Source: Patiria pectinifera
Taxonomy: Eukaryota; Echinodermata; Asteroidea; Valvatida; Asterinidae
NCBI GenBank assembly: GCA_029964075.1
Contig: CM057141.1
Location: 1,860,001-1,924,000 of the forward strand
Reading direction: 5' to 3'
DNA length: 64,000 bases
Every line of letters begins with the position of its first letter. The stretch's first letter is position 1. Both the position numbers and the translations under genes were made by a program. Below the pieces are notes generated by a model that was not told the DNA's origin, did not search any database, and was given only the letters and a program-made list of their open reading frames with translations. Shown in pieces: positions 18,258 through 55,812 of the stretch.

Positions 18258-21200
18258 TCATCTGTGCGTTGCGTTCAGCATTTTACACATCTCCTCCAGG
18301 GGATTGGTCTTGATGTTTTCGTTGCCCGGGTTGACGTAGACCTCTGGCTCTCTCTTCATGACGTACGCGCCCCTGTTGATCAGGTCCACAGAAATCCGGG
18401 CAATTTTGGGCGGGACAGGCGGCTGCTGGATGCCCGTGGTGCTGTTCACTAGTTTACCAATCTCCTGGAGGGGGTCGCTGTTTGGGTAAATCGAGGACTC
18501 GTTGAAATGGACCAGGTCAGATTTGGCAGTGGTGAACTCAGCACCCTTCCTGTTATCAGCAACACAGTTTGCGGGTGACTCTGGGGAGGTCAGGCTCCTA
18601 CTCGGCGATTTGGCCTCTCCGTTTCTGCTGTCAGTCGAGTGCGGCAGGGTGTTATTGTTGTGTGTTCTCTTGACTGGCACCCCTTGACATTTCGCAGACC
18701 TGCCCTCCTGGTCACTGGCGTGACACTTCTGAGCTTCAACCCCAGGCTCTTGCTTTATCTTCAGCATGCCCGAGGTTGAGGCCTGAAGGGCAGGTGGGGT
18801 CTTGACTTTGGAGGGCAAATGCACTGAATTTCTGCTACTGTCAGTCTTGGGAGTGGGTCTCGTTTCATGAGGGGCAGATGAACTGTCACAGAACATTTTG
18901 TACATCTCAAGACTCCTCTTCAGTCGACTGATGTGGCCCTCGTGGTTCACACTGTCTGTATCACCTGTCGGATCACAGTGCATCACACCATTATGCTCAG
19001 CGCTATGGCTTAATGCCAACCTATCCCTTTTCATAAGCATTTTATCTGGGGATTTGTTGTTGGGACTGAGATGGTTGTGGGCTGGACGGGGAACCATTGT
19101 GCTTTGATGAGTGTCTTGAGTATCCCCTAGACTGCTGTGTGAATCACCTGATCCTGATGAAGTGTTTTCAGGGTGCTCTGTTTTTATCTCAACACTGCTG
19201 GGCGACACACTGGTGCTGCCATTATGGTTCTCCCCACTGCAACATGTTACAAGGGAAGTGGGCTCAGTTTTCCCGTTGGCAGCTGTCCCTTTATTTTCAG
19301 CAATATGCTTCGTCATTTGGTTTTTATCAACTGTGTTGATGAGTGACTCTGGATGGCGAGGACGTCTTGAGAAAGGCTCTGGGTTAGTCTTGCTGCTAAG
19401 GCTACTGGCTTTGGCTTGCTTGGGTTCTGAATAAGACAGCCGTAAATCTGTGTCATGATTCTGTATCATTGTTTTCAACCCTGTCTGTCTATCTGCAAGG
19501 CCGTCCATTGGTAGGTGCCGATCATCATGTTCATGCTTTCTTGAAGATCCTCTTCTGTGTCCAGTCTCCATAGGAGCATCTTTTCTATTCCTCTCCTGTC
19601 CTTGACCAGACGAGGAGCTGCTAGACTTCTTCATGAACATGGATACCAAACCTTTCTTAGGCACACTCCGTTGGACTGGGATGCTCACTGTGGTTGCCTT
19701 CACTAGATCCTTCTTGCCTCCTGTTGATGGCAAGCGGGAATGAGGCTTGCCTTCAGAGGGTCTGGCCTGCTCCACTCGCTGAATATCTGCCCTGTAAGTT
19801 TTTAAAGAGAGAAGACTCTTTCCGCTGCATTTGGGCTGAGAGACAATTCCTTTTGCGACAGAATTTTTGATCACATCTGCCGGCAGGGAACGCCTCCTCT
19901 TGTGCATTTTCCTGTGGATTTGATGGTCAGACACAGACTCCTTGGCATCTGCCACTCTTTTCAGGCGCTCACTTCTCATGTGTCGCGATGACCTTCTTGA
20001 ATGCAATCTGGTCCTTGTGGATGCACAAGTTGGGTAGGTGTTTGGCTTCAGTCCAGTGGCGTGTCCATGTCTCACTTCTTTGGTTGAAGTGCCCGGTTTT
20101 GGACTGTGATGAGGATCATGGGATTTCTCCTCCTTCCTGAAGGAATGGGAAAGGATCTTATCGATTGCTTCAGCAACAGTCACATTTTCAGATTCTTTTG
20201 CCGCCAGGTGTTTTTCCATCTTGGAGGCCATGGCCTCTGAGGGGCTTGTGGCCAGGGAAAGCGCATTGTACACCATGGCAAGACCAGCATAGCTAGGGAA
20301 CATACCACTGCCATTCACAAATTGCTGTTGAGGGGTCTCAACCAATGGCATCCAGGGGGCAGTGTGTAAATAAGTGTGGTTTTGCTGGTTGCCAAGCAAC
20401 CTGGGATGAAAGTTTGTGTCCCTTGCTGTCTCCACCATGGAGGACAGTTTGTCAAGTGGGTTAGTTGTATTGCTATCTGTTGCTGGGCTTTTCCGGCAAG
20501 TAAATTTCATTGGGAAAAGCTCGTCGAAATTGTCAGGGTTGACGTACCTAATGGCTGTGCTGGGAGCTGGTGGTGGAGATGCATGGGGACTGGGTGATTT
20601 CGGTGTTGGATTTTGTGGCTCACTTGCTACAGGTAGTTCATTAGGAGCTTCTCTTTTCACCTCCTCCATTGTGCTGTCTGTCGATGGTGCCGTTGAATAG
20701 TTTTTACGAGCTTTACCTTCTGGGCTCACATCATATCTTGAGTCTGTTCTGCTATTCCTAAGTGCTGTTTTTTGGCTCTCTGGATCAGTATTCAGTGAGG
20801 ACACATTCAGCAACTGCTGCTTTGAGGCTCCATCTTTCAAAACAATCTTAATTTTGTCTCTTGGTTGCTGGTGGTCATCCTCTCCTTCCTTATCGGGCCA
20901 AAGTTTCCTGACTGCCGAGTTGGATTTCGTTGTCGAGCTCACTCCGTTTGTAGATGTGTCTGGCTCTGCTATTCTATCAATACCAGACACATCATTGCCA
21001 AGTGCTGGGGCCAGAAAGTGCCCCGTTTCCTTCATGTGGTCTGTGAGTTTGTGAACATTGGCAAAAAGGTGAGAACAGCCAAGACACTTGAGAGATCGAC
21101 TCTTGGATGTCTTTTGGTTGGCATCTGAATCAACTGATCTGGAACGTCCCATACTTGCTGGGACTCGATGACTGCGTGCGGCCAACATCTGGTTGAGAGC

Positions 21201-22603
21201 TGCTTTTGTCGTGTTCTGGCAAACTTCCTCTCGAGAGCTGATGGAACTCTCAGAGTTCCTCTTTTCCCGTTGAGACAAGTTGTCCATCTCTTTTGGAAAG
21301 ACTGTCGCTGGCAGGGATTCCATAATAGGGTTGGCTGCCTCTTGGCAGTCCTCCTCACCAAGGATGTTTCCATCCTCTTCCTCTGCTTCCTCCATCCCCT
21401 TGTCATCAGGTTTAGTGTTAGTTCTTGTCAACAGAATCCCTGCGTGTCCGGGAACGTGACTGTAATGCTTAGTCCTGACCATATGCATGGTCAGATCTTT
21501 GAGAGTTCTGAATGACGCTTGGCAAATCATGCATTTCAGGACTTGGTTAACTGGGATTTCTTCAGGACAGTCCCCTGCAGGTGGCTTGGACTGTGAGTTA
21601 CTGTGGGACTTTTCGTGTTTGTCATGCCCGCTTGTTGTAAGATGCACAGTGTAGTCTAAGAAGTCAGGGAATGAGACCGAGCATGCTGAACAAGTATAAG
21701 CACAGAGTTCTTTCCTTGATGAGGCAGCCGGCAGTCGCTGCTTTCTGCGCAGGGCACAGGTGCTAAAGAATTCTGTCCTGGGTGGAACAAGGGCGAGGTA
21801 TCCCCTTTGCAGCATCAGTTCTGAGTTTAATTGCTTTGTGCTATTGTGCCCAGTGGCTATGAGATGCAAAGACAACATCCCGACATTGGGAAACGCTTGG
21901 TAGCAATCTGTGCACAGAACAAAGTTACAACGGCCATTGATTCCACGACAAAGGCTAACCTGCGATGGCAGCACACTGTAGTCTGTCTGCAGGCGGGACA
22001 CACTGGCAAGTACATCACGCGGGACAGTCTCACAGAACACAGTCTTGACACCCTTGCTGGGACTAAGCCCACCAGATGAATCCGAGGATCTCTTGGACTT
22101 GCCGGGTGAGCGGTCACGATGCGGGGCCTGGTCTTTCCGCTTCTTCACTTTAGAGACCCTCAGGTCAAGTGCCTCCTCCTGTTCCGGGACGGACTGGCTG
22201 GAGCGCATCCCAAGTTGGCTGAATCTCAGCACTGTCTCCAAATCGGAGTCCTCGTCTGCAGAGTCGCTGTCCGTCCCAGACAACGCAGTGCACATTTTGC
22301 TCAACATTGTCATGGGACCATTCATGGAGGAAAAGGGCAGGCTCTTGGTGGCAGATAGAGGCTGGGGTGGAGATGATTGGCATCTCGTTGGACTCTTCAG
22401 AGAAGCAGTATCTGGGGACAGGCAGCTGGAGGTAGATGGATTCTGTGTCTCTTCCCCCTCTGTCTGCTCTTTCTTAATCTCCTTGGCTCCAACTTCTCCA
22501 TTCTCCCTCTCCACCTCTTTCTCCTTCTCCTCTATATCATCTGATTCATCATCAGCTAGCTCTCCAGGGCTGACATCATCAGTCTCAATATCACCCTCAT
22601 GGG
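18258..22603 (-). CDS. tsh: Teashirt/TSHZ zinc-finger protein, main coding exon
   Basis: This exon encodes residues 15-1461 of a teashirt-family nuclear transcription regulator, a family that acts mainly as a repressor in trunk and appendage patterning. The acceptor is TTACACAG at 22,604-22,611; codon 14 (GCC) is shared with the 13-codon first exon. An acidic N-terminal region precedes a CtBP-type motif, ALDLRVSK (about 158-165). Four fingers all have the tsh spacing CX2CX12HX5H: 244-266, 318-340, 371-393 and 520-542. Fingers 2-4 match the vertebrate trio in order; finger 1 is extra or diverged. The long remainder is Ser/Pro/Lys-rich, with repeated short motifs NPLDKLSSMVE, DPLQEIGKLVN and NPLEEMCKMLN like those in vertebrate TSHZ. 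The protein ends there: the vertebrate homeodomain-like region and last two fingers are absent. At 1,461 residues it is longer than the roughly 1,050-residue vertebrate proteins. Confidence 0.95.
21018..21692 (-). other. tsh: Teashirt zinc fingers 2-4
   Basis: Finger 2 occupies 21,624-21,692 (residues 318-340), finger 3 21,465-21,533 (371-393) and finger 4 21,018-21,086 (520-542). All are CX2CX12HX5H. Finger 3 contains the HMVRTKHYSHVP signature and finger 4 HMKETGHF, both close to the vertebrate TSHZ fingers. The long spacer between fingers 3 and 4 is typical of the family. Confidence 0.9.
21846..21914 (-). other. tsh: Teashirt zinc finger 1
   Basis: The finger has Cys at 244 and 247 and His at 260 and 266 of the spliced protein, in CX2CX12HX5H spacing. 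It lies upstream of the three canonical fingers and has no counterpart that I recognise with certainty in vertebrate TSHZ. Confidence 0.8.
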
Positions 22604-24205
22604 CTGTGTAATGAGAACAATAAAACAGACAGTGAGTAGAAAGTACAGAAATTATCAAATTTCCAAGCAACCAAGAGGTGATCAAACACCAGGTGATCAA
22701 TTACCACAAACTGAGATGCTGTCCTTGTTGATACTAAGCTAGTATGTAATATAGCAATAACATCATGTATGGGCAACTTCAGTGCAATTTCTGTTGTGGT
22801 AACACTCAGTTACATGCATGTTCCTGTCTTATTAGGCTTTTCCTACTCAGTTTAAAACTTGGCACATGCTCAGTGCACCGGTTTTTTTTTTCACAGGCGT
22901 GGGGGGGGGGGGGAGGACAAAATCAAATGCTATATGGCATTGTTCAAGATGGAAACTTCAGATAGAAGCAGGTTAAACAAGCACCCACTGGCTGTGCTAA
23001 TGCTGTTTCAGCTAGCAGCGCATCATTGGAATGTAGGCATGTTCTACAAAACATGAGATATTTGTTTTCATGAATTTCGGGGTTTCTTATTTCCTGAAGT
23101 CTTGTATTGAATGAATTCACAATGTTTGATGAGGGGCGTCATTACTGATATCTGGAATACCGATGACCGTGGCCATCCCCAATCTTGAGCAGAGTTGAAC
23201 AATCAATGTCTTGAATGTCAGCATTTTTAATGGACATGAACAACTAATGAACCCTAGCCACTGATGAGCTAACACAGCCTATATTGCCTGTAAACATGCT
23301 CATATTCGTAACTCGTCAAAACGTTACGCAAGCATCGTTAGAGAGAACATTGTTGCGAGTTAATTCACAAAACTTTCTCTCTTCTGTGTATGAAACGGTC
23401 ATTTTGATGTATTTCACAAAAATGTACAAAAATTAACACTCGTACATTCACTTGTATTATTTGTAGCAAATACAGCGCAGCCCTCCCCCAACTTTCAACT
23501 GCTGGTGCATGCACATGGTTACTGGGACACATGGCAGAGCAGTCCACCCACGCTGATACAAGGTATTTTCAAGGTATTGCTGTAATTAACATTCATATTC
23601 TACTTTTTAACAAACTTTGTAAAATATCCCTTCTTGGTAAACATGTTGGTTTTTCTTTTCTTTGGAGCCCAAAAGGGCACGTTCTTTTGAGAGTGCTCCT
23701 TTAACTCATCACAGACCTTGACGTGACCATCATAAGGATGTGACAAGACTTCAGACATCACAAAAAAGTCCTCTTGCTACATTAGGAGACATGTTGCAAA
23801 ATTGTTGCCGATTCATAATTGACATTTTCAAGTCTCCCCATACAACCCCCCCCCTCCCCCATCCTCTAATGAACAGACAGTGCCAATGTTGACATTTATG
23901 GCGGAGAATATGACAAAGGGTTATTAATTAATTTGCTGCATGGCAGGACACCTGTAGGACCGCACACTCTAATGTCTGCTAGGAGAAAGGTTGATGAAGA
24001 CATTAAAAGCTATACATGCACAGTTGGGACTTGTCCACCGTCACACCAGAGTTGTTTCATTAAAAGTCTAATTCTCCTGTGTCTTCAGTTTTATCGAAAG
24101 AGAACGGTTAACGGCATGTGTACATGTGACTGGCCACAAGTGTACTGTGGTCATAAAAAGCCAGATACTGTACACATGCACATATGTAACTAAAAATCCT
24201 CATCA
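22604..24205. other. Intron stretch without recognised elements
   Basis: Contains a G run near 22,898-22,912 and a C run near 23,848-23,862. Nothing coding. Confidence 0.45.
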
Positions 24206-24314
24206 AAAACTATTGCATTATTTTCTGTGTCTGCATGTGAGCCATAAATTTATGATATATCATAAATTTATGGCTCACAGACTCAGAAAATAATAAAATA
24301 GTGCCAAGTTTTTC
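24206..24314. mobile_element. Foldback element with 44-bp perfect palindrome
   Basis: Bases 24,236-24,279 are a perfect spacerless palindrome, starting TGTGAGCCATAAATTTATG. Imperfect arms continue outward (TTATTTTCTG against CAGAAAATAA, then AAAAACT against AGTTTTT), so almost 110 bp can fold into one hairpin. There is no coding capacity. It is probably a small foldback MITE. On the transcribed minus strand it would be a long RNA hairpin within the teashirt intron. Confidence 0.8.
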
Positions 24315-24966
24315 CAGCAATAACAAATAACAGGATGGGAAATACATGTAGCTGTGGTTGCGAAAAAAAGTCTTTCAGATTGGCAGTGATAGCATTTTGC
24401 ACGACACTTAAATCTCCAAGTATTCACATGAACGTATTTCTTAACAATTGTTAATCCAATGAGTAGTGTTCCTTGTTGGTCCCGGATTTTAAAGTGGGTT
24501 TTATATATATATTGTTTTTTAAAACCATGCCAATAAAGATTTCAGTAGGGCAGCAAAATTGAAAATGTTGCCAAAGTTGCCCATCCTCCCAAAACCTTTG
24601 CTTACAACATTGCACACAGGAAGGCACGACTATAAGCTAGTCCATTACGTAGAGTGAAGGTTTGTCAACCCTTAAGGTAGCAGCGAACACGTCTCTACAA
24701 ATTATACAGACAAGACATTGACAAGTGATCACTAATTACATGATGTGCATGCAGTAGATGTACACTTAACTCTACGACCAGCTTACAACAAGCAATAAAT
24801 CGCAACAGCATTTGCCTGCTCGGTGATAATAATGAGCACTGCTTATTGCATGTAAGTGATTGCTGAAGAACAAAACCTCTCTTATGACGACCGAACTAAT
24901 TTGATATTGACATGAATGTACTGTTACCTGAAGATATGGCTCATGATTCTATGCTGTGTACATGTA

Positions 24967-25153
24967 CAGTCGAATCTCGTTAGTACAAACTCTGTTAATA
25001 CAAAATTCTGGTTATAACAAACATAAAGCCTTAGTCCCGACTGTGCATTTATGTGCACAATGAATGGGACTGATGTTCCTCTTAATACAAAATTCTGATA
25101 TAACAAACAATTTGGCTAGGTCCGAACAAGTTTGTATTAACGAGACTCGACTG
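24967..25153. mobile_element. Pogo/Tigger-like MITE, 187 bp
   Basis: The ends are CAGTCGAATCTCGTTAGTAC at the left and, reverse-complemented, CAGTCGAGTCTCGTTAATAC at the right, matching at 18 of 20 positions. TA flanks both ends (24,965-24,966 and 25,154-25,155). The CAGTCGA start and TA target are typical of the pogo/Tigger branch of Tc1/mariner. It is internally deleted with no transposase. Confidence 0.85.
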
Positions 25154-25249
25154 TATACTGCAAGGACAATAGCTGAAAGATACTGGTTTCCACAAGACTT
25201 GCTCTATGGATAAACATGCCTCAGATAGTTCTGGTATGTGCTCCGTGAG

Positions 25250-25570
25250 CGAACAAGAGAGGGCGCTTTTTTACCAATTTCGAGAACCCCGTGGACAGGA
25301 CAACACCACCTGCGCGTACTGGTTCGCGCGCGTATAGCGCAAAGTACGCACGATAGAGTACGAAAGTGTGACATCATTTAGAACCAGGAAGTGTAATGCA
25401 AACGAATGGAGTACGCGCACGTGAGTATGCGCGCGCGTGTTGGTTCACCGGCTGAATCACGTGCTAATGTCTTTTACACACATAATTGTGCGCGTGATTC
25501 ACTTCGGTACTCTATACCGAATGTGTACAAAGCCAAAGCATCTTCGCGTGAGCGTCAGGCGTCGTCAGCA
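25250..25570. promoter_or_regulatory. CpG-rich block inside the teashirt intron
   Basis: CpG is much denser here than in flanking DNA (repeated GCGCG and CGCACG words). The block begins with a CTCF-like core, AAGAGAGGGCGCT (25,255-25,267). It also contains CACGTGAGT and ATCACGTGC E-box-like words. It could be an internal promoter or insulator; no open frame supports a gene. Confidence 0.3.
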
Positions 25571-26976
25571 ATGTGTTCAAATGTCTCTCCCATGCCCCCC
25601 AACTCTCCCTTTCATATCCCATGCAGGGGGTAAATGTGCCCAGACCCCATACACTGTTTGATGAAAGCAGTAATTGTGTTTCTATGAACTCAGGAGTCTG
25701 CTACTTGATGCGTCTATTTTTGTGTACCTGTTCACAATCGTGTTATACTGAGACTAATAAAGAAATGATGGTGATTTGATTGAATGATGAATATCTGCAT
25801 GGATACCCCTGCATAATGCAGGTCTCAGGTGCTCAATAATTTCAGAAAGAATCTTGATGTGTGAAATTGTAAAATCCACATACATGTACAGACAAGCGCG
25901 TTCGTAATGTCGATCGTGGACGTCCTATTGTCCCTCTTTTGTTTGTACTCACATACTTACAGATGTATACATACAGAGTGCTCTTGGTCAACTAGTCTTT
26001 GAAGTTTGGTTACACAAGGTCACATTCTGTCGGTTTTCATACTTACATTACCGGTACATGTAATTTGATGACAAAATTCTTAATTATTCATGTAAATGTT
26101 ATGGATAGGTAACTGAAGATGTCAATACATAGGCCTTACATACTGTACAAGTGTACATGTACATGTAGATCATGTTTAATAAAACATGTACTGAACATGT
26201 GCCCTTTGAATCAAGCATCTGTTGAAATCAAAGGCTGGCCATACTTTATTGGTTGGCCGGCCTCTCTTTGATCCATTTCGGCAGCGGCACATAAGGCCCG
26301 GCAAATATGACTGATTTATGACTCAACAGGCTGGCCATAGACACGAGAGCTGGCTAGCGACTGACTGATGCCTTTTTTTTCCCCCTCTTGCCCGCTCTGA
26401 AGTGTTTACAGATGCTAGGCGTGTTGATTGGCAATCTGTACTGTGTCAATTCTTGAGCCAGGGCAGGAAAGGCCTGACTGTACCAGCTTTTCCCTGGAAA
26501 AACATGCCGCACAGAAACGCTTTGTCAATCATCGGATTCAATTTGTTTTTTCGGAGCCGGAGCTCCAAGCTAACTCTTGGTGCCTTTATTTCTCTCTTTC
26601 TCCCCTAATGTACATGTAGCTATCCTTCACTGTTGTCAGGCAGTGAAAGACAACAGGCATCAATGTAGAGAGTACATGTACATCTACCTCTACAGAGACA
26701 TACAGTAACTAAATACTCAAGCTCATATTCAAACTGCACTTAAATTTACAACACACTCCTACACACTCAGAACAAAGATCTTAATTAACTTCTCACCATG
26801 CTTTGATTGTGTACAATTCAATCAATCTTATCTTTACATGTAACTTTATGGTGATGCAAACCTATGTCAAGAAACTTACGATGAGTTCAGTTCATTGTAA
26901 GTTCCATGGCAATGACGTGCGACTGATAGTGCTTTCTGATGTCAAATGACGCCAAGTGATGACCAAATCATATCTA
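25571..26976. other. Intron stretch without recognised elements
   Basis: Only scattered ACATGTAC words (for example 26,153-26,168) and short random open frames. Confidence 0.45.
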
Positions 26977-26980
26977 GTTA

Positions 26981-27340
26981 AAGGTGTACCTTGCATTTAT
27001 CCCAAACGTAACCTATCAAAAATATTACTGGTACAACACCCCGTGAAATTGTTCCGTCTGGCTTGCTGTCATTCCACTGAAATCAAGAAATGTACATGTG
27101 GTTTCTAATGACCAGTCAATGAATTCACCTGAATTGACTGATTTTTTTTTCAATAAAGAGTGCTATTGATGACATCGTGTTTCGTGATCTACATGTAAAG
27201 GATGTGCATGGTTTTTCACTGTTATCTCAAAAACTGTGATACCCACCGAGCTTAAACTTCAACTTGAACATTCGTCTTTTGATTTTGAGTGTTGCTATGA
27301 TTGGAAACGAAGAAAATGTGTGAAATTATCCTATATGCCT
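26981..27340. mobile_element. TTAA-flanked repeat, family B
   Basis: The segment lies between TTAA at 26,977-26,980 and TTAA at 27,341-27,344. Its ends are AGGTGTACCTTGC and, inverted, AGGCATATAGG, so terminal symmetry is short. The right 70 bp matches the sequence ending at 50,061 (shared TTTTGAGTG and TGCCTTTAA), which shows that it is a dispersed family. Confidence 0.5.
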
Positions 27341-27978
27341 TTAATTAAATATGGTGCGTTTTGATGATCAAATGATGCCTAAATATTATGGTAGGGTGGG
27401 TCCTCATAAAAGAAGAAGTTGCTTTGTAGAGCCACTTTTAACAAGATAAAATCTTTCACAAAAGCATACAAGAGAAATTATATTTACAACAAAAAAAATG
27501 TACATGTGCAGCACATCATGTGTTAACGAAGTTTCACATTCAGTATATGTACATGTAGATGTAGTTATGTTTTCAGTTATGTTAATTAAACAGATTTCAT
27601 AGAAAATCGGATATAAAAAAATGTGGTGAGTCAAATAATTGGGTAAAAGTAAACCGAACTAAATCACACACGTACAAGCGATTACTGTAACAATGTACGC
27701 ACGCATTTATAGCTAGCACAATGGGGAGTTGCATGTACATGTAGCAGCACTGATCCAGATCATATGATCTATTCAATGGAGGTTACTGACTGACTATGTG
27801 ACCTGAGGAAAAGTACACCAGACTGCAGGACACAAGTGATTGATTGATGGGTAATTGTGAAGGCAAAGAGCTCTACGCTAACATTTTTTTTTCGGTTTAA
27901 AAAAGCAGTCTATTCCAGCTGGATAATGGCAACAGAAAAGAGGGATATTCCAAGAATATTTTACAGAAAATAATTTGA

Positions 27979-28328
27979 GGGTAATATACAAGATTTGCTT
28001 TTGCTGTAATTTTCAGAAATGGATGGATTTTAGGGTTAGTAATTTATAGCAAATAACTACTGATCTGTTTCAAGTTTTGTGTTCACAGATGCTGGACAAA
28101 AAAAAGAAGAAAAAAAAGCTGTTCTTGAGTCTTTTTTCCTGACCCTACTTCAGACGAAACGGAGCAATTTGTAGACGTTGGGAATTGTCAGGTCAGGGAA
28201 CCAGACTAGCTGGCTTGCAACAGTTCACAGATGTGTAACCGATTGCAAACAAAATTTTGGAATAACTAAATTTGGTAAATTGGGGAGTATTTTTATGTTC
28301 TGATGTTTGCAAATGTTGTATAATACCT
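27979..28328 (+). mobile_element. TTAA-target MITE, family A, copy 3
   Basis: Same family as 10,742-11,267 but shorter. The left end reads GGGTAATATACAAGATTTGC; the right end, inverted, reads AGGTATTATACAACATTTGC. TTGA, a decayed TTAA, flanks both sides. The interior keeps CCTGACCCTACTTCAGAC and GTCAGGGAACCAGACTAGC but has lost the central GGTCGGCCGACC palindrome. Confidence 0.7.
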
Positions 28329-28619
28329 TTGAAGAGCATCGGAATGAGAAGAGGATTATCAAACTGTAAAGATGCCATTGGTATGATGAACACCATTTGA
28401 ATGAACAATTCAAGAAAACCTTCTTGTTTCATTTGAAATCTTATTAACCTATAGAAGTTCAATTAGTGACTATTTTATACATTTGTATGTGATCAAGAAA
28501 CTTTCCACTGCAGCCCATTCAGATGGCATTATTGCTCTATGGGATAATCAGCATCAGATGGAGGGACCAAAAAAAAAAAAAAGGAAAAAAAAAAACGAAA
28601 AAAAACTGAATACATCAAC

Positions 28620-32183: not shown

Positions 32184-32187
32184 TTAA

Positions 32188-36291: not shown

Positions 36292-36295
36292 TTAA

Positions 36296-36595
36296 CCCTA
36301 ACCCCTTGAGCACTTTTACTAGAAAGTATCTTGAATCCGCCAAAATGCATCAATTTTTTCGTGCCAAAAACAGTGGTGTCCTGAGTCCATCAGAATCCAC
36401 CAGTGAGTCCATCAGAATCCACCAGTGTACAGTGTACATATACATGTAGCTCGTACACACCAAACATATAGCCAAGGAGTTCAACTGTTCAGATCCTGAA
36501 TCCATCAAAGTCCCCCACATTTTTCAATAGGGAGGTATCCTGAATCCGCCAAAATCCTCCAAATTTGGATTTTGATGGATTCAGGTACGTTACGT
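36296..36595 (-). mobile_element. GATGGATTCAGGA-repeat element, copy 1
   Basis: It lies between TTAA at 36,292-36,295 and TTAA at 36,596-36,599. The left end is CCCTAACCCCTTGAGC; the right end is decayed (CAGGTACGTTACG). The interior is an irregular tandem of TCCTGAATCC(G/A)(C/T)CAAAAT-type units. It is the inverted, shorter relative of the element at 52.9-53.2 kb. Confidence 0.75.
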
Positions 36596-36650
36596 TTAAA
36601 GAAATTCTTAAATGTTAACTTAGGATTTCCCATGATTTGTTCTTAAAGCG

Positions 36651-36935
36651 GTCACATGATGACCAGTCATACCAGCCACATGATGACAAAATGGCAGCCG
36701 TCAATTTTGAATCATGTGACTTCCTTCATGAATCTGATTGGTCAACATAAATATTGCATCCGGTGAAATCGGAGTGCTGCCCGCACACCTTTCCAGTGAC
36801 ATCGGATCCGGTGAAATCAGATGCAAAAAAAATTTGGCGTAGGGAAAGATCGGTCCGATTTATTCAGCGCACATCTCTGTACGATGGCCCGATGATCTGT
36901 TGAACAGATAAAATCGGAAAGGTGTGCGGCAGGCC
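36651..36935. mobile_element. CCGGTGAAATCGG repeat with embedded inverted ends, copy 1
   Basis: Closely matches 42,976-43,278 in direct orientation. Inside, TGCCCGCACACCTTTCC (from 36,778) is inverted as GGAAAGGTGTGCGGCA (to 36,931). GGATCCGGTGAAATC and CATCCGGTGAAATCGG are direct repeats at the left. The shared flank ACATGATGACCAGTC is outside the inverted ends, so the repeat unit is composite. Confidence 0.75.
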
Positions 36936-39900
36936 TTGGATTGTTAGTCTGCAGTTATTTCCACCTTGTTTCACACATTATATCCATGGCATTTACAACG
37001 TGCCCTTTTCTATCCATGGTCCCCCATACCATTTCTGTTAATTGATTTTCTCGGAGTATAAATTACATGCAGGAAACAAATGCTTCTTGAATTGAATTGA
37101 ATAGAAGTGACTTTGCACATGCATCAATTTGAAGACAGCATTAAATTGTTTTACACACTGGGGGAAAACGATGCCCCCCCCCCCCCACTACCCACCACTC
37201 CACCTCAGTCCTACAATACGGTGGATGCATAGTTTGTGGCACTGCATAAGGTCAACTTCACTTTGTTATCATTTTTTGAGCGATTCCCTAAATTTGATTG
37301 GAGCCGCTTGTTCTAATCTCATTTTGTCCTTTGGATTATGATCCGGCATGGTTCTCCATTTGTCGGGGAGAGAGTGCTGTGCATGATGGATGTGCTCCAG
37401 CCTGATATGCCAACTACGATTTCAAGTAACCTCTTCCCCATCTGGTGTCAGATGGTAAGGGATATGACACTGCCGTCAGGCCCGCAGAGATAAGACCTGG
37501 GATGAAATAAGAAAAACTTAAGACCCTAGCTCGGCTCAAATTGGCTGTCAGTCTATCATACTGCCACGGCGGAGGTTGCAATATGCCAATGCATCATCAA
37601 TCAAAAGGGCTGTGTTATTCAATGGATTAATAATCAGCTCTGCTCTAAGAATACCCGGGAAGTCGCCACGGCAGAGACCGTAATATTGCTGAGGTTTCAT
37701 TAAGATTTATCTCTTTCCCGTTTTCCATTTTCTGATGAACGATAGCCTTTCCGATTCCAGGGGAGGCCTTCGTTTTCATCTCTGATATCGTATATCTTCA
37801 TCATCGCGATTCAACATTATTTCATTAGAGCCACTTTTTAATATACCATTAAAATGTAAGTTAATACCAACACTTAATACTGAAACCAGCCCATGACCAC
37901 AACAACTGAGGAGATGGATAATTTGGGGGGGGGGGTGGCAAATTAACCTACTCAAATATTGGGTCAACAAAATAATGACTCAAGTTTATTATAATCTGTG
38001 TAACCCTTCTGATTTTGTAAACTCGAGAAATCCCAAATAAATGTGTAACTTCGTACAGCTTTAATACACCATACCAAAATGTACAATGTAGTGCATCATG
38101 GTCCTCTACTACAGCTCTCCATGGTACCAGGACGGGATATTTAAACATCTTTTCACACATACAGTGTATAGCCAGCGATCTCCACACAGCTCATCTGAAC
38201 CATAATAGCAAGCACTCAAGTGCAGGAGGTAATCACAGGCACTGATGCTGCTCGGCCCGGGAACAGTTTTTTTTTTTTCTTTTTTGCCTTTGAGTGCGCA
38301 GCCCGTTCCAAGTCAGTCAATCACATGACAAATGAAGACAGGCAATCGTGGCAGCTCTTGGGCCGTGCCCGAACAGCCGCATGCGCTGCGAGTGTATTGT
38401 GTGCGCCTGTGTTAGCGTTTGGTTGATGCAAGGCGCGCGGGACTTCAATACACCATCGTGTCTCCACAGACACTTCTGCCTGTCTGGGCCTGTATGATCA
38501 GGCCATACACTGCTGGGGCCAGTTATTCATAACGTCATATTAATGAAGACAGTCGGTGAGATGGAATAAGGCCTCTCTCTTCAAGTAGCCGGCGAGGGGA
38601 CGAGCATTACCCTCATTGACCGTGCCGATTCGGGGCCTATTTATTTAGCAAATACCCCTCGACACACACGAACAAGAAGCTAATTATCCACGATCGCATG
38701 CATTGCACATGTATCGCAGGATCATTTATTTTATATGGAATAAAGTGGAAGTTTCGTTTTATGGATTTTTTTTCTCTCTCTCTCTCTGTCTTCGGAATTA
38801 CAATCTCGTCAAAGCGGGACATCCTGTTTTGTGTGTGTGTCATTGTTTTATCACGGACTACTTTTTTGTATCCTTCCTTTCACTGAGTGCATATTGCAGA
38901 CCTAGAATTTGTGTGATGTTAGTTACAGATCCATTGTTATGTTGATAATCTTTGTTTATCATTACATCAGCAGAACGAACAGTGTCATCAGTTCATCCGT
39001 TGCACTGTACACATATTTGAGACCTTTTTAAATTTGAATACAGTGATGCTGAAAACACATGTACATGTAGGGTACGTTGTACGTATTTAGTGTGTGGACT
39101 AATGACTTGATTCACAGATTTACATGTATACATGTATAGAGAAGACAAAGTTAACTGTAGATTTTATTACAATGTTTTGTAGGGAACATGATTTATAGCA
39201 TTTTTGTAGTTTGAAACGAAGAGAGGCACACATGTAACCATGCGACTTAGGCCTGTAGATGTATGTACCGGTAATTACATCAAAATACTACGATACCCAG
39301 GGTGTGTTTTCACGACCATAACCAAATAATCATATTTGCAACATCAAAATAATCAAATGGCATGTTGATGCACTTGTGTGCAAATGCAGCAGCAAAATAT
39401 TGTTACATTGTAATTGTAAGTGTCACACGCTTTGCATTTTGTGTATCGAACGATCACTACTTTGGCAGAATGTATACCATGCGGCCACAGTGCTGCTACC
39501 ATATTATTTTTGATATCATTTGTGCCCATTACAAGTGATATCAATCAAATACATGTAAACTATACAAAGTTATTTCCCCAATACTTTAAAAAGTTATTTG
39601 CCATTTGAAATTATGGCTTTTAATTTCTTTCTATGTACCGGGTACTTGGCTTCTGACTAATTAAGAAATCTGAAAATCACAGCAAGAAAAACCTGAATGA
39701 TAATTTTTGTGACAGCAAAGAAAAATTGTCCGGTCGCCTGTCAATTGTCAGAAAAATAGATAAAGGTAGAGTAGATCATTTGCAGCTATCCAAAACGTAA
39801 CCGATGAAATTATTGTTGAAAAGCATACTTGGTTTAAAGATCTAGTAATGGCACTAAACTCCCTGTGAAGTTATTCTTTATGGCATGCTGTCATTTTGAA

Positions 39901-42975: not shown

Positions 42976-43278
42976 TCACATGATGACCAGTCACATGATG
43001 AAAAAATGGCAGCCCTCAATTTTGAGTCATGTGACTTCCTTCATGAATCTGATTGGTCAACATAAATATTGCGTCCGGTGAAATCGGAGTGTTGCCCGCA
43101 CACCTTTCCGGTGACATCGGATCCGGTGAAATCGGATGCGAAAAAATCACACGTTTGATTTCATCTGGTCGCCCAGTGTAGGGAAAGATCGGTCCGAATT
43201 TTATGCGCACACCTTGAGCTGAAAGATGGTCCGATGATCCGTCGAACCGGTAAAATCAGAAAGGTGTAAGCTGGGCTT
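42976..43278. mobile_element. CCGGTGAAATCGG repeat, copy 2
   Basis: Direct repeat of 36,651-36,935 about 6.3 kb away. It keeps TGCCCGCACACCTTTCC near its left-centre. A 30-bp segment (ACACGTTTGATTTCATCTGG and what follows) is missing from the other copy. Most of the first 165 bp are identical. Confidence 0.75.
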
Positions 43279-45289: not shown

Positions 45290-45612
45290 GAAACGTCCGT
45301 GAAGGGCAAAAGCTAATTTGATTTACATCATCCGACGCAAAATTCCATCTTATAATAGTTTATGCGGTAGGCCTACCCGCTGCTATGTACATTAGATTCG
45401 AACCGGCCAACCGATCCCGTTAGCTCGGTGGTCGAGTGGTAAGACATCTGCACTAGAAAGCAGGAGGTTGTGGGTTCGAATCCCACTCGAGTGATTTTTT
45501 CCAACTTTCACTCGGGAGGTAACATACTGGAGTATACAGTGTTTAAACGTCGGTGAAGGGCAAAACCTAATTTGATTTACATCACCCGATGCAAAATTCC
45601 ATCTTATAATTG
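45290..45612 (+). mobile_element. tRNA-derived SINE next to a second SINE tail
   Basis: The tRNA-like head has a consensus A box, TGGTCGAGTGG (45,429-45,439), and a B box, GGTTCGAATCC (45,473-45,483). The anticodon loop is 8 nt and the acceptor stem does not pair well, so it is not a functional tRNA. About 60 bp of tail, including GTGAAGGGCAAAACCTAATT, follow at 45,549-45,610. An almost identical tail precedes the head at 45,293-45,357. Two copies therefore abut, or one inserted into another. Confidence 0.75.
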
Positions 45613-48079: not shown

Positions 48080-48129
48080 TGTTGGTTGGTTGGTTGGTGA
48101 GTTGATTGGTTGGCGGGTTGGTTGGTTAG
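48080..48129. repeat. (GGTT)n microsatellite
   Basis: Imperfect tandem GGTT repeats with a few substitutions. Confidence 0.85.
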
Positions 48130-49388
48130 TGGACACTTTACTCGGGGTGTATTAAACTGTTCCATCGGCGCGCGAATATGATCAAATTTAACTTGCGATG
48201 GTGTCCCAGACTACTCCCCGCCCCCAATAACTCTGGATCATTCGAAATACACAGTAGTTCACAGAGCCCATGGAGCTGTACACTGAACCAGTTCTGCAAT
48301 GGAGCACTGATACCAGATAAATTAATTCTTCAAAGCAGGAACTGTACCTTTAAAGTTGATCATGTTATTAAGCATTTGAAATAAAAGTTCCAAGACAAAA
48401 ATTTCACCTGAGTCGTTCAGCAGATCTTGACCATCACATCAAAGCACTTTTGGAATTTTTGGTGTACACTAAAAATGTCTTGTCGATAAAAGAACGAGCT
48501 CCTTAAAAAAAGCTGCATGGAGGTCTGTGGAGACTTGGTCTTTTTTTTTTGCCAGTCATAAATAACTTTGTAATCTTCTCTCCGACACATGTAGCCTTAA
48601 AGACCTTAAAGTGAAACTACCATGTCTTATGTACTTCATAATTACAATGCCTGTATACTCAGATTTGAGTTCCTTTCAGTTTCCACGGACCAAAGTTATA
48701 GTTAATAAACAAACTATGTTACGTGTACATGTACTTAATGGGGTCGGAGCAAGAACATACCCTCGGGTAATACAGGTATTTCCTATTTGGGCCCATTAGC
48801 CCCATTCTGCTTCGATTCCAAAGTTCCATATCTTGTGAACACAAAGGCAGTTTTGGTTCATGCGTAGCCAGATGAAAAGTGGTCAGACACTAGGTCCACG
48901 GGAATGTGCAAAGTACATGTAGTGCATGCACAGAATGCGTCCTTCATTCGCTCGTGTGAGTGCCACACAGCGCCACCTACTAACAGGTTTCAAGATTTAC
49001 TTCACAAGTGTAGTAGATCCTTCTCCTTTAAAGATCTATTGTGGGCTTCACACAACCCATGACCGTCAAAAGCCGTAATGAAAGACAGCATCCGTTTCCA
49101 GCGATTTCTTACAATGACTTCATGACTTTGCTCTACACACACACCATGCACATTTAAGTATGATTTTATTTGGGACATCCGCGCGTAAACTCATAGTAGT
49201 CCAGACGCATTTCAAATGTCAGTTGAAATTATGATGGAGATCAGTTAGATAAACTTGGCAGAGCTCTGTAAAAGATGGATTTTGAGAGAAACTGACATTC
49301 TATTGCTTGCTGTGCCTCATAATATTAAAGAAATGCATCTTACCATAGCACCAGAAACTGAACTAGTTGTGTTTTTCCTGTGGTCTGT
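48130..49388. other. Intron stretch with a strong CTCF-like core
   Basis: TAGTAGGTGGCGCTG on the minus strand (48,968-48,982) is close to the conserved CTCF core. Nothing else was recognised. Confidence 0.4.
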
Positions 49389-49925
49389 ATGAAACCCGAA
49401 ACCGACCCGATCCGACACCGACTTTGGGTCGTGTCGGTTTGTCCATCATTTCACTTGGGTCGGGTCGGGTCGGTTTCAGTTTTGCGTTTGCGATTTTCAG
49501 GTCTTGTTGGCCCCCCCCCCCCCGAACACTTCGGAACAGTTTGGAAATTTACACAATATTTATTGCAGAGTCACTTTGCCCGGTGCGACCAACTTTGGTT
49601 TGCGGTCTATCACACACTGTCTATAACATGTAGGCCCACCTGTAGGTCACGTTGTAAGTGCCGTATCGTATGATTCATTTAACTGATTGATGACGATATT
49701 CACACGACGCAGGTAAGTTCAGGCAGAAAAAGCGGACACAGATGCTCAAGCCAGACATTCTGGGTTTTTTTCGGGTTGGATCGGTTCCGGGTCGGTTGGG
49801 TTGGGTTTCCTTGAATTTTTGTTGGGTCGGATCGGTTTTAGGAGTTCAAATCAGTTTCAGTTCGGATTTGGTTTATATCTATGTTTCGGGTCGGTTTGGC
49901 CTGGTCAACCCGACCCGATCCACAA
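49389..49925. repeat. GGGTCGG-rich repeat cluster
   Basis: GGGTCGG and its complement recur many times at 49,395-49,475 and 49,765-49,920, with CCGACCCGATCC at both extremes in the same orientation and GGGTCGGGTCGG runs between. A C run and unrelated sequence separate the two clusters. It may be the ends of one transposon; boundaries are unclear. Confidence 0.5.
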
Positions 49926-52865
49926 TATTAGTCTGGTGGTCTCAATTCCAGGCTGGGTTGTAGTTTCTGTCAATGTAACCACCGGATTTTGAGTGATGCT
50001 ATTTATTATTGAAAATGAACAAAATGTATGAAAAGCAAATTTATGATCCACATGTATGCCTTTAACGATACCCTTACCCTGCAACAGAACTTGTTCAACT
50101 ACCCCCCTGTGTTGCCTTTTCCCACGAGAACTAGCACCTCCATGGTAATAACACCTATACTTGGCATGCATAATGTCAAAATCCTTTCAGTTTTTTTCTC
50201 GAAGACAGGTTCCCACAAATTGTGATGAAATTGCAATGAAAAACACAAAACTTGCGAGACCTGGCTCCAGCAGAGCTTGTTATCAGGAAGTGAAATTTGC
50301 TTATCTCTCCAATATGACATCACAGCTATCGCGCCCGCATGCACAGTGCCAGCCAGTAATGGGGAAGGGAAATCGGGGGAAATTGAGAGTCCTCCTTGCT
50401 TAGCACCAGCGAGTGTGTTTTCTTTTAATATGACATGTATATTTATTTTTACCGTCAGCTGCTGCTGACAACATGGGCGGTTACACACACAAAAACACAG
50501 GGTAAACATCGCGAGGCAGACAGGTTGGATTTAGCACAGTGGTGCTTGACAAGTGTCTGCTTAACGTTTTTATTTAATTAGCTTTGAAACTTCAAGCCAA
50601 ATCGGCCTGTTAGATTTTTAATCCAGTGTGTACGTGCTTCATCACTGGGTGAAATTAAGGTCAAACATAAGACATTTGCTGACCTTTCACAACAGTATAA
50701 CTGGTTCAGTTGTGATACAATGCTTCCGTTTCTATCTTACACATGTATATTTGTCGTTGCACTTACAAAGAAGTAAAGGTCAATCGACTGTGTAATTTTA
50801 TATGATGAAATCTGAACATCGGAATCCTAGCCAAGATCTCTTGTGAGAACTGGCAAATCAACAAGGCAGACATAATTAGATGTGAACAAGGGTTGCAAAA
50901 GTCTCAAGGCTTCAGAAAATCTGGCAAGCGAACAACTTTTATCTACTGTATTTTACAACAATGGCGTACAGATCATGCACAATACATGTACAATTTCTTC
51001 AAAATAGTTACAATGTATCAATTTGCTTAACACTGTACTACTACCGGTAGTATGCAGAAGTAGGCCTATTAATTCCCCCCCCCCCCAAAAAAAGAGGTGC
51101 AAACAAATTAAGCCAGTCCTGTGGCATGTTTGGGCTTGGGCAACTCTGGGTAAGAACTGAACAGAACTAATTCCCTTTTTGACACATGCTTGATGACGCC
51201 ACTGTTTTGAGGAATAGCCAATTCAAGTTCCTAATGACTTGTTGAGTACATTCCAGACACTTCAAAATAGATTTTACATGATGAATGACCATGTTATTGA
51301 GCGGGGTCACACCCATCATGACCTTTCATTCAGTTCACATTATGGAGGTTTCGCAACGCTTTCTTCGGCTGGGTTCAATTACAAAACAGATGGAAATCAC
51401 CCAACCCTACAGTGCATTCTTTATCTTACAAACCACTCAGTAAACAGAAAGACAGTCTCCATGCCCACAAACTAAATAAGAAGGTACACATCTTACATGA
51501 ATCGGACATATAGTTCAAATCAGTGCATTAGTCAACCCTGTGCAGTCAGGGCACCAGACATGCCGAAAAAAAACCTGACAAGCCGCAAGAATAAAAAAAA
51601 ATGATCATACCGACTATGGATGATAATAACCATGGATATATCAGTTATGTTTTCCCCTGCGCCGCTCTTAATTCGCCATTCCCCCTTCAGGAAGAGACAG
51701 GGATATCCTGGCCAACCCATGCGGAAGTGCGCGCTGAAGTAGTGTCACTCTAGCTACAAATCAGCTCGGACAAGACTGCTTGACATCTCGACATTAGCCT
51801 CTCACCATACTTGACAGATCAATTCATGGGAGAGACGGGCTCCTGCATCAGAAGGAACTCTCTCGCCCTGTCCGCAGGGCACTTTTCAGGATCTCGCTCC
51901 TCTGGGGGGAAAAGGGGGCAAGCTACGTCACACACACACTCACGAAACTGCGAGGGGCCCAGGAATAGCAACTATGAAGAAACTATTACCAGACATTTCA
52001 CTGAGCAGGTAAAGGTGAACATCCATCAAACTGGCAAGGCAGGCTTCACCTGGACTTCATTTCAAAAATTCTTCGTGTACTTTCTTTTCCTTCTGAAAAA
52101 CGTCCAACCGGCCGGAATTTGATATTAGGCATATGAAAATAAATCATCTGACAGGCAAGAACAGCCAACTAAGACAAACACACACAAAAAAACTCTGCCT
52201 TCTGCTTATGATGGAGCTGATAAGTTTCACTTGGGAGGAAGTGGGCGGCACAGCTGCAAGTCAAGATGTGGCATTGTGGGGAAGTTGAACAAGTAAAAGG
52301 GGGAGTGACGGCTGTAGTCTTCATTGCTCCGTGCCATATTGTCAATGTCAAAACAGAAAGAAAAAAAATGAGTTGACACGTCAACAGAGTCTTGAAGGAA
52401 CATGCAAGACCTTAAAATAAAATGATGAAAATTCAGGCAAACTATATGTAAGATCTTCATGGGTGAGCAACCAGAGAGAACTGAACAAGAAATATTAAAG
52501 ATGTATAGTCCATCTTCTTTGTCAAATTCAATTTGTTTTTCAATGTATGTTACCAAAATAAAATAAAAAAAATATTTGTTTCTTGTTTCTGCGCGAAGAC
52601 AAGTTGCCAATCACTAAATTATATTCTGATAGGGGTCAAGAACCTGCGAGTCTACCCTGCGAGAACTTAATTATTGCCAGGATATAAATATTTTGATAAT
52701 TGAAAGTAATTATTTTGTGACTAAACGTGGGTGTCTCATTCATGATTAAACTTGCACTGCTGGAAAAACATTCTTCATAGTGAAACTCTAAAAAAGTACT
52801 GGCAGTACATCTTTAGAGGCCAAAACGTGGTACAAGCATGATTAAGGCCGATACGGGGTACATTT
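49926..52865. other. Intron stretch with a family B fragment
   Basis: A family B fragment ends at 50,061 beside TTAA and matches the right end of 26,981-27,340. The rest shows no recognisable gene or element. A C run is at 51,077-51,087. Confidence 0.4.
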
Positions 52866-52869
52866 TTAA

Positions 52870-53248
52870 CCCTAACAAACCTGAATCCATCAAAATCCAC
52901 ACCCCTGTTTTGGAGGAATTTGGATTCAGGACACCTCCATATTGAAAAAGTTGGGGGATTTTGATGGATTCAGGACAGTAAGCCTAGCGGTACTGGAGGA
53001 TTTTGATGGATTCAGGATACCTCCATATTGAGCAGTTGGGGGACTTTGATGGATTCAGGATCTCAACAGTTTAACTCCTTGGCTACGTGTTTGGTGTGTA
53101 TGAGGTATATGTACTACACTGGTGGATTTTGATGGACTCACTGGTGGATTCTGATGGACTCGGGACACCAACATTTTTTGCATGACAAAATTGGTGGATT
53201 TTGGCGGATCCAGGATACTTTCTAGTAAACATGCTCAAGGGGTTAGGG
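52870..53248 (+). mobile_element. GATGGATTCAGGA-repeat element, copy 2
   Basis: This is the better-preserved copy. TTAA lies on both sides (52,866-52,869 and 53,249-53,252), with CCCTAAC at the left and GTTAGGG at the right as inverted ends. Inside are about eight irregularly spaced units close to GGATTTTGATGGATTCAGGA, most in the same orientation, several followed by TACCTCCATATTGA. TTAA plus CCC termini resemble piggyBac-type elements; the class is an inference. Confidence 0.78.
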
Positions 53249-53479
53249 TTAATGCAATTTGTGAATGAACATCAACAAACACCGATTAGTTCTGCAGAGT
53301 TTTGCTTATTTCCATAAAACACGGTAGAATGCTTAGAGCACAGCTGCTGACATTTCAATGAAATAGCTAGTCTTCATTGTAATTTACTTCTGGTATTTGC
53401 CAAAACAAAAAAAACCCCTAAAAAAGCTCACGCAACCTTTAAAATCTTTCTCACATAAACACAATATTTATATCTTCAC

Positions 53480-54003
53480 TTTAAATTCACCAAACTAAAA
53501 TTTGCAAACATCAAAAAACAAAACTACCAAATTATTATGAAATACCTCACTGGACTGTAAGTGAATGACTGTCTAAAGTATCCTGTAAAATCACGGCACC
53601 AGGTGTGCTGTAATTTTCAAGAAAAGTGGAATTTTTGTATCAATTTCTCACGCTGGTTGGCCTACCAGCATTGGAAAAACCTGTTTTTTTTTCCCTCCAA
53701 ATACTGCCCCCAATATACCGTATTTAGTTAGTCCGCATTTTGTTTGCAATTGATCATACACACCTATGAACGGGTACAAGCCAGTTAGACTGGTTCTCTG
53801 ACCTTACAATATTATTTCATCTTATGCTCGGTCAGGCAACCAGACCATAGGAACATGATTGTTTTTCTTGGTTTTTCCAGCATCTACGAACACAAAACGT
53901 CCACCAAGTCAGTGTAACAATACTATATATCATACAATAGTAACCCCCCAAATCCATTCATTTCTGAAAATTACAGCAAAAGCACATGTTGTACATATTT
54001 CCT
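53480..54003 (-). mobile_element. TTAA-target MITE, family A, copy 4
   Basis: Minus-strand copy of the 10.7-kb element. The right end, inverted, reads AGGAAATATGTACAACATG and then TGCTTTTGC. It contains the inner pair (TTCTCTGACCTTAC with GGTCAGGCAACCAGA) that is missing from the 16.7-kb copy. Confidence 0.7.
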
Positions 54004-55772
54004 TCAAAAATCACTCCTGAAGAATAAAAAAGGAATATTTCCATTGCCATTTTTTTAAAGTTGACAAAAAAAATTAATAAAATTTGAATTTTTGTATAGA
54101 TCTCACATTGTTGTTTCAAATGTACTTTGATGTGTTGACTTTTTGATGTCTTTTTGATGTCAAGAAACCCAAAATGCCTTGGTAATGTCTTCCTATTGTT
54201 TGTGTACATTACTATAATTGGATTAATTAATTAATATGAAAAGCGGTTAACAGTCAATCAAAATAAGAATTTGTATGCATAGCATTAGTTTGTGAACCTA
54301 TGTGTCAATTTAATTTTTCATTCATGTTAATACTATGTTATTTTTAGCTTGAAATCGATGAGGTTGAGCAAAAACAAAAACAGTTTCTTGTCCAGGCCTT
54401 TTTGAAAAAAATGAAGGAAACGGCCTCATTTTCTTAATTTTGGTTTCAAGATGGCGAATTTTCAAAGATTGCGAGTGGATTTTTTTCTCGACTCTTTTGA
54501 TGATGCAAAATTGTGTCCCCACCCTTTCTGCATAGCTACAATTTGTTGGAAACAAGTTTACAATATATTGACAAAATTGGCAAAAAATATTGTAAATATG
54601 TATGAATTATTAAAACAAATTTAAGAAAAGACGGGCAGGAAATAGGAAGTGGGCAGAGATGAGAAACTTACTTACTTGGCCTTATCATAAACTTAGTAGG
54701 TTGATATCTTATATAAAATAAACAAAGATCAATCCTCATCAAACTGCCTGTAGTGCAGGCCTTCTTCCCCTCCCCCCCCCCCCAAATAAACAAATAAATA
54801 AACAAATAATAAAAAACAACCCAGAAAATACTCGGGTATTATAGTTTATACATGAGTTACATCAAATCAAATCAAACTTTCTAAAACAAACATTGTAATA
54901 CAACATGGGACATAATTATGGACAGATAAACAGTTAGTCCAGTGCAAAACCGACCACAGGCAATATACCATGCATTATGCATAGCGAGCAAGTGATCCCA
55001 TCATAAATCTGACCGACACAAAACAGCAGTTGACACGAAACCCTTTGATGTGACCGCCATTCAACCACACATTTGCACAATGCACCGCCAACAGCTAGGA
55101 CTTGCGACTCCACACAAGCCAACATGATACGGCTATGTTTACGCTTCTACGCAAGAGGCACAAGAAAAACCCTGTTATATTCATGGTACATTGGTAGTTA
55201 ATTAAATTACCACGTCGAACTTCCTAACTGCACAATAACGCCCAGTTGCTAATCCCACCAAACGACCCCACCGCTCCGCGTAGTTAACGATATTAAAGCC
55301 CCGTTACAAAAAACCCAAAGTAATAACCCCGTGAACTCCCCCCGAAAAAAAAAAATACCAAAGCGATCGCCCGGCCACAAAGTCTTCGGCGGCACCACCA
55401 AACACAACTTCATTTTGGGCTAATTTCCGCGGCGCCTGCAATTCGCTTGCATGTCGGCAAACGGTGATTTATTAGACAAGCTTTAACACTTGACCCTGGC
55501 GAGGGTGTTGACCGAGATGCGTCAATCAGCCCGACTTGAAGGCGAATGAAACATGTCAGTCTGAGAACCGTCAACACATCAATGGAGCTTCGCATAAGCG
55601 ACTAGGGGATCTAGCCAGCCAACCAGGCCGCGCGCGACCCATCAAGCCGGTGATGGGGGCCTCTCGCCCAGCCAAGCGCTGGCACGACATCGCGGTCCCG
55701 TACTACGGACGAATCGCCAAAACAGTCGCACCTTCACACCACAGAAACGACCAAAAAGACAGCCAAACTCAC
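54004..55772. other. 5' part of the teashirt intron
   Basis: Bases 54,004-55,130 are AT-rich with nothing recognised. From about 55,240 to the exon, CpG density rises (GCGATCGCCCGG, CGGCGGC, GCGGCGCC), as expected around a promoter-proximal first exon. Confidence 0.4.
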
Positions 55773-55812
55773 CTTTTAAACGTTTCGGGGCCTGCTGCTT
55801 CCGACGAGGCAT
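55773..55812 (-). CDS. tsh: Teashirt/TSHZ first coding exon
   Basis: The 40-base exon encodes MPRRKQQAPKRLK plus one base. The first nine residues equal the start of vertebrate TSHZ proteins (MPRRKQQAP), which also come from a tiny first coding exon. The donor is AAAG followed by GTGAGT, in phase 1, and joins the acceptor at 22,604 to make Ala14. The ATG at 55,812 has A at -3. The frame stays open upstream to 55,893, but the conserved start is at 55,812. The basic start resembles a nuclear-localisation or corepressor-binding peptide; this role is an inference. The exon is too short to be found by ORF length alone. Confidence 0.9.

Follow-up and report, generated by a model that had tools for sequence, protein, structure and literature searches.

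A short first exon of a Teashirt gene encodes a likely NuRD-recruitment motif, in a layout that appears to recur in other zinc-finger genes

Teashirt proteins govern trunk, eye and neuronal fate. The stretch of animal DNA analysed here, 64,000 nucleotides (nt) long and called the window below, holds on its minus strand a Teashirt (tsh) gene of two coding exons, a very short first one and a large one with the zinc fingers, separated by a single long intron (Table 1). An earlier note on this DNA had described a 40-base exon with a GTGAGT donor and a 4.35-kb zinc-finger exon 33 kb away. What we add is that exon 1 encodes a likely binding motif for RBBP4 and the nucleosome remodelling and deacetylase complex (NuRD), and that its layout appears to recur in other zinc-finger genes. 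The motif in exon 1 and the layout found again elsewhere point to the exon's protein product, and not to its intron alone, as a target of selection.

The two exons described in the earlier note were confirmed at base level. On the minus strand, positions 55812 to 55773 read ATGCCTCGTCGGAAGCAGCAGGCCCCGAAACGTTTAAAAG, followed by GTGAGT, and the acceptor sequence, ...TTATTGTTCTCATTACACAG/CC (the slash marks the splice point), sets the start of exon 2 at 22603. Joining 55773 to 22603 gives an open frame of 1,461 amino acids (aa) that ends at 18258 without an internal stop, which bears out the exact phase join that had been proposed. The ATG of exon 1 is the first in-frame ATG after two upstream in-frame stops; the stop-to-stop frame holding exon 2 runs from 22700 to 18258, its first methionine is residue 107 of the joined protein (at 22325), and the AATAAA closest to the tsh stop lies at 18089. 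The donor, [A/C]AGGTGAGT, occurs only once in the window, counting both strands, and a weaker phase-0 donor (7/9) is also present in tsh at 81 nt. Among the AG sites listed from 22710 to 22341, that of 22603 is alone in combining the right frame, at least 13 pyrimidines in 20 and no AG just before; an acceptor at 22411 has the right frame and 15/20 pyrimidines but was rejected for an AG just before it, and no other near 22.6 kb stands. Exon 1 is contained in the longest and strongest CpG-island-like stretch of the window (GC content at least 0.5 and observed/expected CpG ratio at least 0.8; the window overall has 0.41 and 0.60), two weaker spots lying near 51-650 and 38201-38700. We conclude that the observation is real and the model of two joined exons very likely right, and we infer that most transcripts would carry exon 1 joined to the exon with the zinc fingers.

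Judged by its sequence, the gene is the Teashirt gene of an animal, as the earlier note had called it. Fingers 2 and 3 match PDB entry 2dmi, Teashirt homolog 3 (human TSHZ3), with an E value of 1.6e-12, no other PDB sequence appearing up to an E value of 10. Four C2H2 fingers are recognised by pattern, and Pfam zf-C2H2_2 scores above its cut-off in the protein (31.8 against 26.9 bits). The seven Pfam families with E values of 10 or less include no homeobox family, in a search that a very divergent homeodomain could escape. Exon 2 has one place in the genome (assembly search, E up to 0.001), on C13, which is 25.9 Mb long. Modelling residues 225-545 with AlphaFold, run without an alignment, gave a mean predicted local distance difference test score (pLDDT) of 34.3, and no relatives of the protein were found in the collections viral_contigs and genome_contigs.

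Table 1. Features of the Teashirt locus, with window positions, and the first exons of like layout found elsewhere in the assembly.
Feature	Position	Strand	Details
Coding exon 1 (tsh, Teashirt)	55812-55773	-	40 nt; MPRRKQQAPKRLK + 1 nt; phase 1; RRKQxxP is residues 3-9
Splice donor GT	55771-55772	-	AAG/GTGAGT; 9/9 to MAG/GTRAGT
Single intron	22604-55772	-	33,169 nt; dispersed repeats and tRNA-like element inside
Splice acceptor AG	22604-22605	-	14/20 pyrimidines; no AG in preceding 16 bases; frame kept
Coding exon 2	18258-22603	-	4,346 nt including stop; remainder of the protein, four C2H2 fingers
RKDQAPHR	22116-22139	-	residues 169-176; fits internal RKxxxPxK/R; weak, one in 6% of shuffles
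C2H2 finger 1	21846-21914	-	residues 244-266; by pattern
Second RRKQxxP (RRKQRLP)	21729-21749	-	residues 299-305, linker between fingers 1 and 2; in 0.13% of exon-2 protein shuffles
C2H2 finger 2	21624-21692	-	residues 318-340; aligned to TSHZ3 2dmi
C2H2 finger 3	21465-21533	-	residues 371-393; aligned to TSHZ3 2dmi
C2H2 finger 4	21018-21086	-	residues 520-542
CpG-island-like stretch, candidate promoter	55201-56100	unstranded	GC 0.52-0.56; CpG observed/expected 1.03-1.23; contains exon 1
tRNA-like element	45421-45495	+	inside intron, opposite strand; Rfam 47.7 bits; anticodon unassigned by ARAGORN
First exon of L011, ZNF423/521-like			MSRRKQAKPRSRAVK; 46 nt; phase 1
First exon of L012, SALL			MSRRKQANPQHIGSEHESQLPAALEN; 79 nt; phase 1
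First exon of L013, RREB1-like	motif match at C13:19861271-19861296	-	MSRRKQALPARIT; 40 nt; phase 1
First exon of L014, BCL11			MSRRKQDNPQQLRRSLD; 52 nt; phase 1

The protein begins MPRRKQQAP, and residues 3-9 fit RRKQxxP, published as an N-terminal NuRD-interaction motif that binds RBBP4 (PMC11602157; the motif is also given in PMC6644156). Residues 4-11 (RKQQAPKR) fit in addition a second consensus, RKxxxPxK/R, and the internal variant RK(x)xxPxK/R is reported to bind more tightly in ZNF512B (PMC11602157). Structures of RBBP4 are reported with the motif peptides of FOG-1, BCL11A, SALL4 and ZNF827, and the substitution p.R3S of BCL11B raises the dissociation constant (Kd) for RBBP4-MTA1 from 0.133 to 1.16 uM, with craniosynostosis in mutant mice (PMC6644156). 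Likewise, NuRD binding is described as lost in ZEB2 with R22G, a change in the motif region (PMC8304685); when the two proteins are aligned on the motif proline, R22 of ZEB2 corresponds to R11 of the Teashirt protein. Across the six frames of the window RRKQxxP occurs at two places, both inside tsh, while base-shuffled windows (n=100) held a mean of 0.04 at any position and none of the 100 contained M.RRKQxxP. A 27-aa N-terminal query matched no PDB sequence in a library without chains under 20 residues, in which short motif peptides could not appear. We consider that exon 1 probably equips a repressor, Teashirt, with a tag that recruits NuRD.

We scanned the assembly (613.5 Mb, 1,020 contigs) with the pattern ATG NNN MGN MGN AAR CAR NNN NNN CC and asked of each match for a donor with at least 7/9 agreement to MAG/GTRAGT, in phase 1, within 80 nt of the ATG and before any stop. 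M.RRKQxxP was encoded by 9 of the 13 matches, the other four (L003, L004, L005 and L015) having Ser in the motif and being set aside. Five of these nine starts, tsh and L011 to L014, are followed by such a donor, as are just 2.5% of 7,805 ATGs in the comparison sequence, which includes the five loci; the binomial P is 1.1e-6, and about 2.5e-5 (4/8) when tsh, the seed, is left out. The shuffled windows, together with this donor frequency at motif starts against the 7,805 ATGs, led us to reject a chance occurrence of exon 1. All five donor-bearing loci have a zinc-finger gene downstream on the same strand. Together, these findings suggest a repeated gene design, in which five zinc-finger genes of a single genome appear to share one kind of beginning.

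The four further genes differ in how their downstream exons could be traced. For the SALL gene (L012), the first same-strand finger frame lies about 35.7 kb downstream and spans 1,614 aa, in which the pattern picks out ten fingers, and another two finger frames follow within 100 kb downstream; 1,421 aa of that frame, when searched, matched Sal-like protein 4 best in PDB (E 3.4e-43), and an acceptor near the frame start (16/20 pyrimidines) takes phase 1, as would a poorer one further in. In the gene that we take to be ZNF423/521-like (L011), the second exon measures 174 nt and encodes one finger, and it is followed by a 1,434-aa frame with 33 finger pattern matches. Both of its acceptors take phase 1 and the middle donor (7/9) is in phase 1, with a second phase-fitting acceptor 105 nt further into the large frame; the best 60 of 207 PDB matches of this frame are other finger proteins. 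The locus that we presume to be RREB1-like (L013) has a phase-1 acceptor 12.6 kb downstream into a 377-aa open frame, and then a 1,619-aa frame with 17 finger pattern matches whose PDB matches are other finger proteins; one candidate donor of the middle exon (7/9) and one acceptor of the large frame are both in phase 0. This presumed RREB1-like gene seems to start with the same NuRD-motif exon, and we know of no such first exon in vertebrate RREB1. At the BCL11 locus (L014) no finger frame lies within 20 kb downstream, but when the genome is searched with a human BCL11A finger fragment, the top match (80% identical) lies 76.6 kb downstream in the same orientation, with the second-best match adjoining. 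An NCBIfam search of four proteins gave no match. As a separate observation, two of the remaining motif starts, L007 and L008 (C7:20098344 and C7:20109325), are near-identical MPRRKQLTP frames without a donor, inverted and 11 kb apart; the motif there is probably due to chance, in a segment that was duplicated.

If exon 1 acts as we suppose, residues 3-9, near the free N-terminus, would dock into the acidic surface of RBBP4/7, as the published motif implies, and the docked protein would bring NuRD (HDAC1/2, CHD4 and MTA) to whatever DNA or partners the Teashirt fingers hold, leading to repression of targets. Because the start codon and the motif share one exon, transcripts that start elsewhere, with Met107 as the first methionine of exon 2, would be without the N-terminal tag, so that the choice of promoter or first exon could switch NuRD recruitment. 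SALL2 is described with two promoters, its E1 carrying MSRRKQRKPQ and its E1A being without the motif (PMC7937961). A NuRD tag at the N-terminus would offer a direct mechanism, open to testing, by which Teashirt represses, and would explain why the loss of a 40-base exon that annotation can easily overlook should matter; it further predicts that corepressor recruitment is switched through the use of alternative first exons.

Several points weigh against this interpretation. The total number of scan matches, 13, was no higher than the 14 given by a reversed control pattern, so that this number by itself does not exceed chance, and four of the nine M.RRKQxxP starts (L006-L009) have no phase-1 donor, L009 having one in phase 0 only. 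RBBP4 binding might persist in a protein without exon 1, as there are further candidate motifs at residues 169, 299 and 579, the last with shorter spacing. Our literature search, which included the string 'MPRRKQ' and covered mostly open-access texts without figures, found no link between Teashirt and the motif, which is weak evidence of novelty, and 'tshz' does not occur in the main texts of PMC11602157 and PMC6644156, their figures lying outside the search. Finally, the motif of exon 1 is short and basic and can be read as a nuclear localisation signal, an alternative weighed below.

That five genes of one genome share the layout raises the question of whether it is a movable shared module or the product of repeated convergence. 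We lean towards independent origin in each family, with the motif required to be N-terminal, a short first coding exon before a long first intron being common in large animal genes, and phase 1 being partly luck. Exon lengths differ (40, 46, 79, 40 and 52 nt), and in sequences this short no homology could show at the DNA level. Since tsh served as the seed, only four exons of independent phase evidence are left, about 1 in 81 if phases are equal. However, all five exons here are in phase 1, as is the first coding exon of human ZEB2, which joins BCL11B exon 2 in frame (PMC4505893). The alternative is that ATG, RRKQxxP and phase-1 donor form a portable NuRD-recruitment module, which shuffling of exons or promoters in early animals would have placed before unrelated zinc-finger families (Teashirt, SALL, BCL11, ZNF423/521, RREB1 and ZEB). 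As such a module sits alone before a long intron, first-exon choice could switch between NuRD-bound and NuRD-free forms. We hold an origin by shuffling to be rather unlikely.

The earlier note had suggested that the 33-kb intron was kept for the regulatory DNA it holds, an explanation to which we give tentative credence, somewhat short of an even chance. Human TSHZ3 is also described with a single long intron (PMC3428857) and the SALL gene of this genome has a first intron of 35.7 kb, whereas that of the RREB1-like gene is shorter, at 12.6 kb. Moreover, part of the tsh intron consists of dispersed repeats, and its length could thus be explained by drift.

One dispersed repeat family (10749-11274, 16767-17028, 27971-28334, 53500-54008 and 57746-58284) has matching pieces 74-88% alike, which occur in either orientation and both within the intron and beyond it. 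The intron further contains an inverted pair at 36292-36600 and 52865-53252 (up to 87% identity) and a direct pair at 36671-36925 and 42986-43267 (up to 94%). The tRNA-like element, besides which an Rfam scan of the window found nothing, is flanked by 66-bp direct repeats (45291-45356 and 45545-45610, 94% alike), and may be a tandemly repeated unit or a tRNA-derived element.

A further reading accepts the exon as real and sees in its peptide only a start codon and a basic nuclear-localisation stretch, through which Teashirt does not use NuRD. The peptide is indeed basic, with five Lys or Arg among residues 3-11 and another Lys at 13, and the similar ZEB2 peptide is described with nuclear localisation signals as its sole functional domain (PMC4505893). 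Against this, the exact RRKQxxP order stands where SALL4, BCL11 and FOG-1 carry theirs, with basic residues following the proline, and the SALL, BCL11, ZNF423/521-like and RREB1-like genes here open with the same motif; we judge it improbable that localisation is the whole function. Least probable of all is that most Teashirt protein starts elsewhere, at Met107 or from another first exon in the intron, and that the 40-nt exon marks a minor isoform: the motif-less E1A isoform of SALL2 is reported as predominant (PMC7937961), but exon 1 here lies in a CpG-island-like stretch, upstream of 22603 the open frame reaches its stop without a methionine, and for human TSHZ3 in ovarian tumours, PMC3428857 describes array probes across exons 1-2 and within exon 2 that behave alike in rearranged and other samples, and only wild-type products from 5' rapid amplification of cDNA ends (RACE).

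Elsewhere in the window, an upstream neighbour on the same strand as tsh (61405-64000 and L002) shows low-complexity frames rich in Pro, Ser and Lys (P/S/K) and frames rich in Arg and Ser (RS), one of them ending SRREELLKQLRAVEDAIARKKAKLK. An 18-bp tandem repeat occupies 63719-63977, and the neighbour may resemble ZC3H18. No Pfam match reached its cut-off in ten further open frames of the window, all outside exon 2, and a PDB search with one of the ten gave only E values of 0.22 and above.

The N-terminus MPRRKQQAP of the protein here is probably shared with vertebrate TSHZ1-3, to which the earlier note had assigned it. Vertebrate TSHZ1-3 and this protein have the Teashirt fingers in common (the 2dmi match), and ours presumably has one extra N-terminal finger relative to TSHZ3. 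The likeness in gene structure that had also been claimed extends to the intron: human TSHZ3 is described as having 'only' one, the gene measuring some 74 kb (PMC3428857), as tsh here has its single one of 33,169 nt. In contrast, a divergent homeodomain is described in vertebrate TSHZ (PMC4901127) and none was found here, and three human TSHZ genes (PMC2211742) compare with one tsh place in this genome. Taking these two differences to indicate a non-vertebrate animal, we consider the exon split likely to be older than vertebrates, as had been proposed. The Drosophila proteins teashirt and tiptop are likewise described as finger proteins without a homeodomain, an absence that the review PMC4901127 reads as probable secondary loss, and its absence here would bear on that reading if the animal is a non-vertebrate deuterostome. 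Drosophila Tsh is reported to have the motif PLDLS for CtBP (PMC12469452), whereas a check of our protein gave just ALDLR at residue 158. A match of this kind arises in 7% of shuffles.

FOG-1 and ZNF521 have first exons of 40 nt, the length found for tsh. FOG-1, SALL1/4, BCL11A/B, ZNF827 and ZNF296 are described with RRKQxxP near the N-terminus of a zinc-finger protein, as in the Teashirt protein here, where residue 2 is Pro in place of the Ser of these NuRD-motif proteins. Phosphorylation of Ser is reported to impede binding of Bcl11b to MTA proteins (PMC7158892); with Pro as the second residue, such a block would be impossible in this Teashirt. In BCL11B, too, the motif is encoded by exon 1, which covers the first 19 residues, MSRRKQGNPQHLSQRELIT (PMC4505893). 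ZEB2 differs in its ten exons (PMC11818587), against two coding exons in tsh here, in the untranslated exon that precedes its first coding exon, and in its motif, which starts at residue 14 rather than 3. Its first coding exon (exon 2) runs from the ATG at nt 523 to nt 595 (PMC4505893), which by arithmetic makes 73 nt, 24 codons plus 1 nt; it carries RRKQANP and ends, like tsh exon 1, in phase 1. A leukaemia fusion joins this exon in frame to BCL11B exon 2 (PMC4505893), and BCL11B exon 1 must therefore end in the same phase. In ZEB2 the motif so encoded is reported to be required for NuRD (PMC8304685), the role that we propose for its counterpart in Teashirt.

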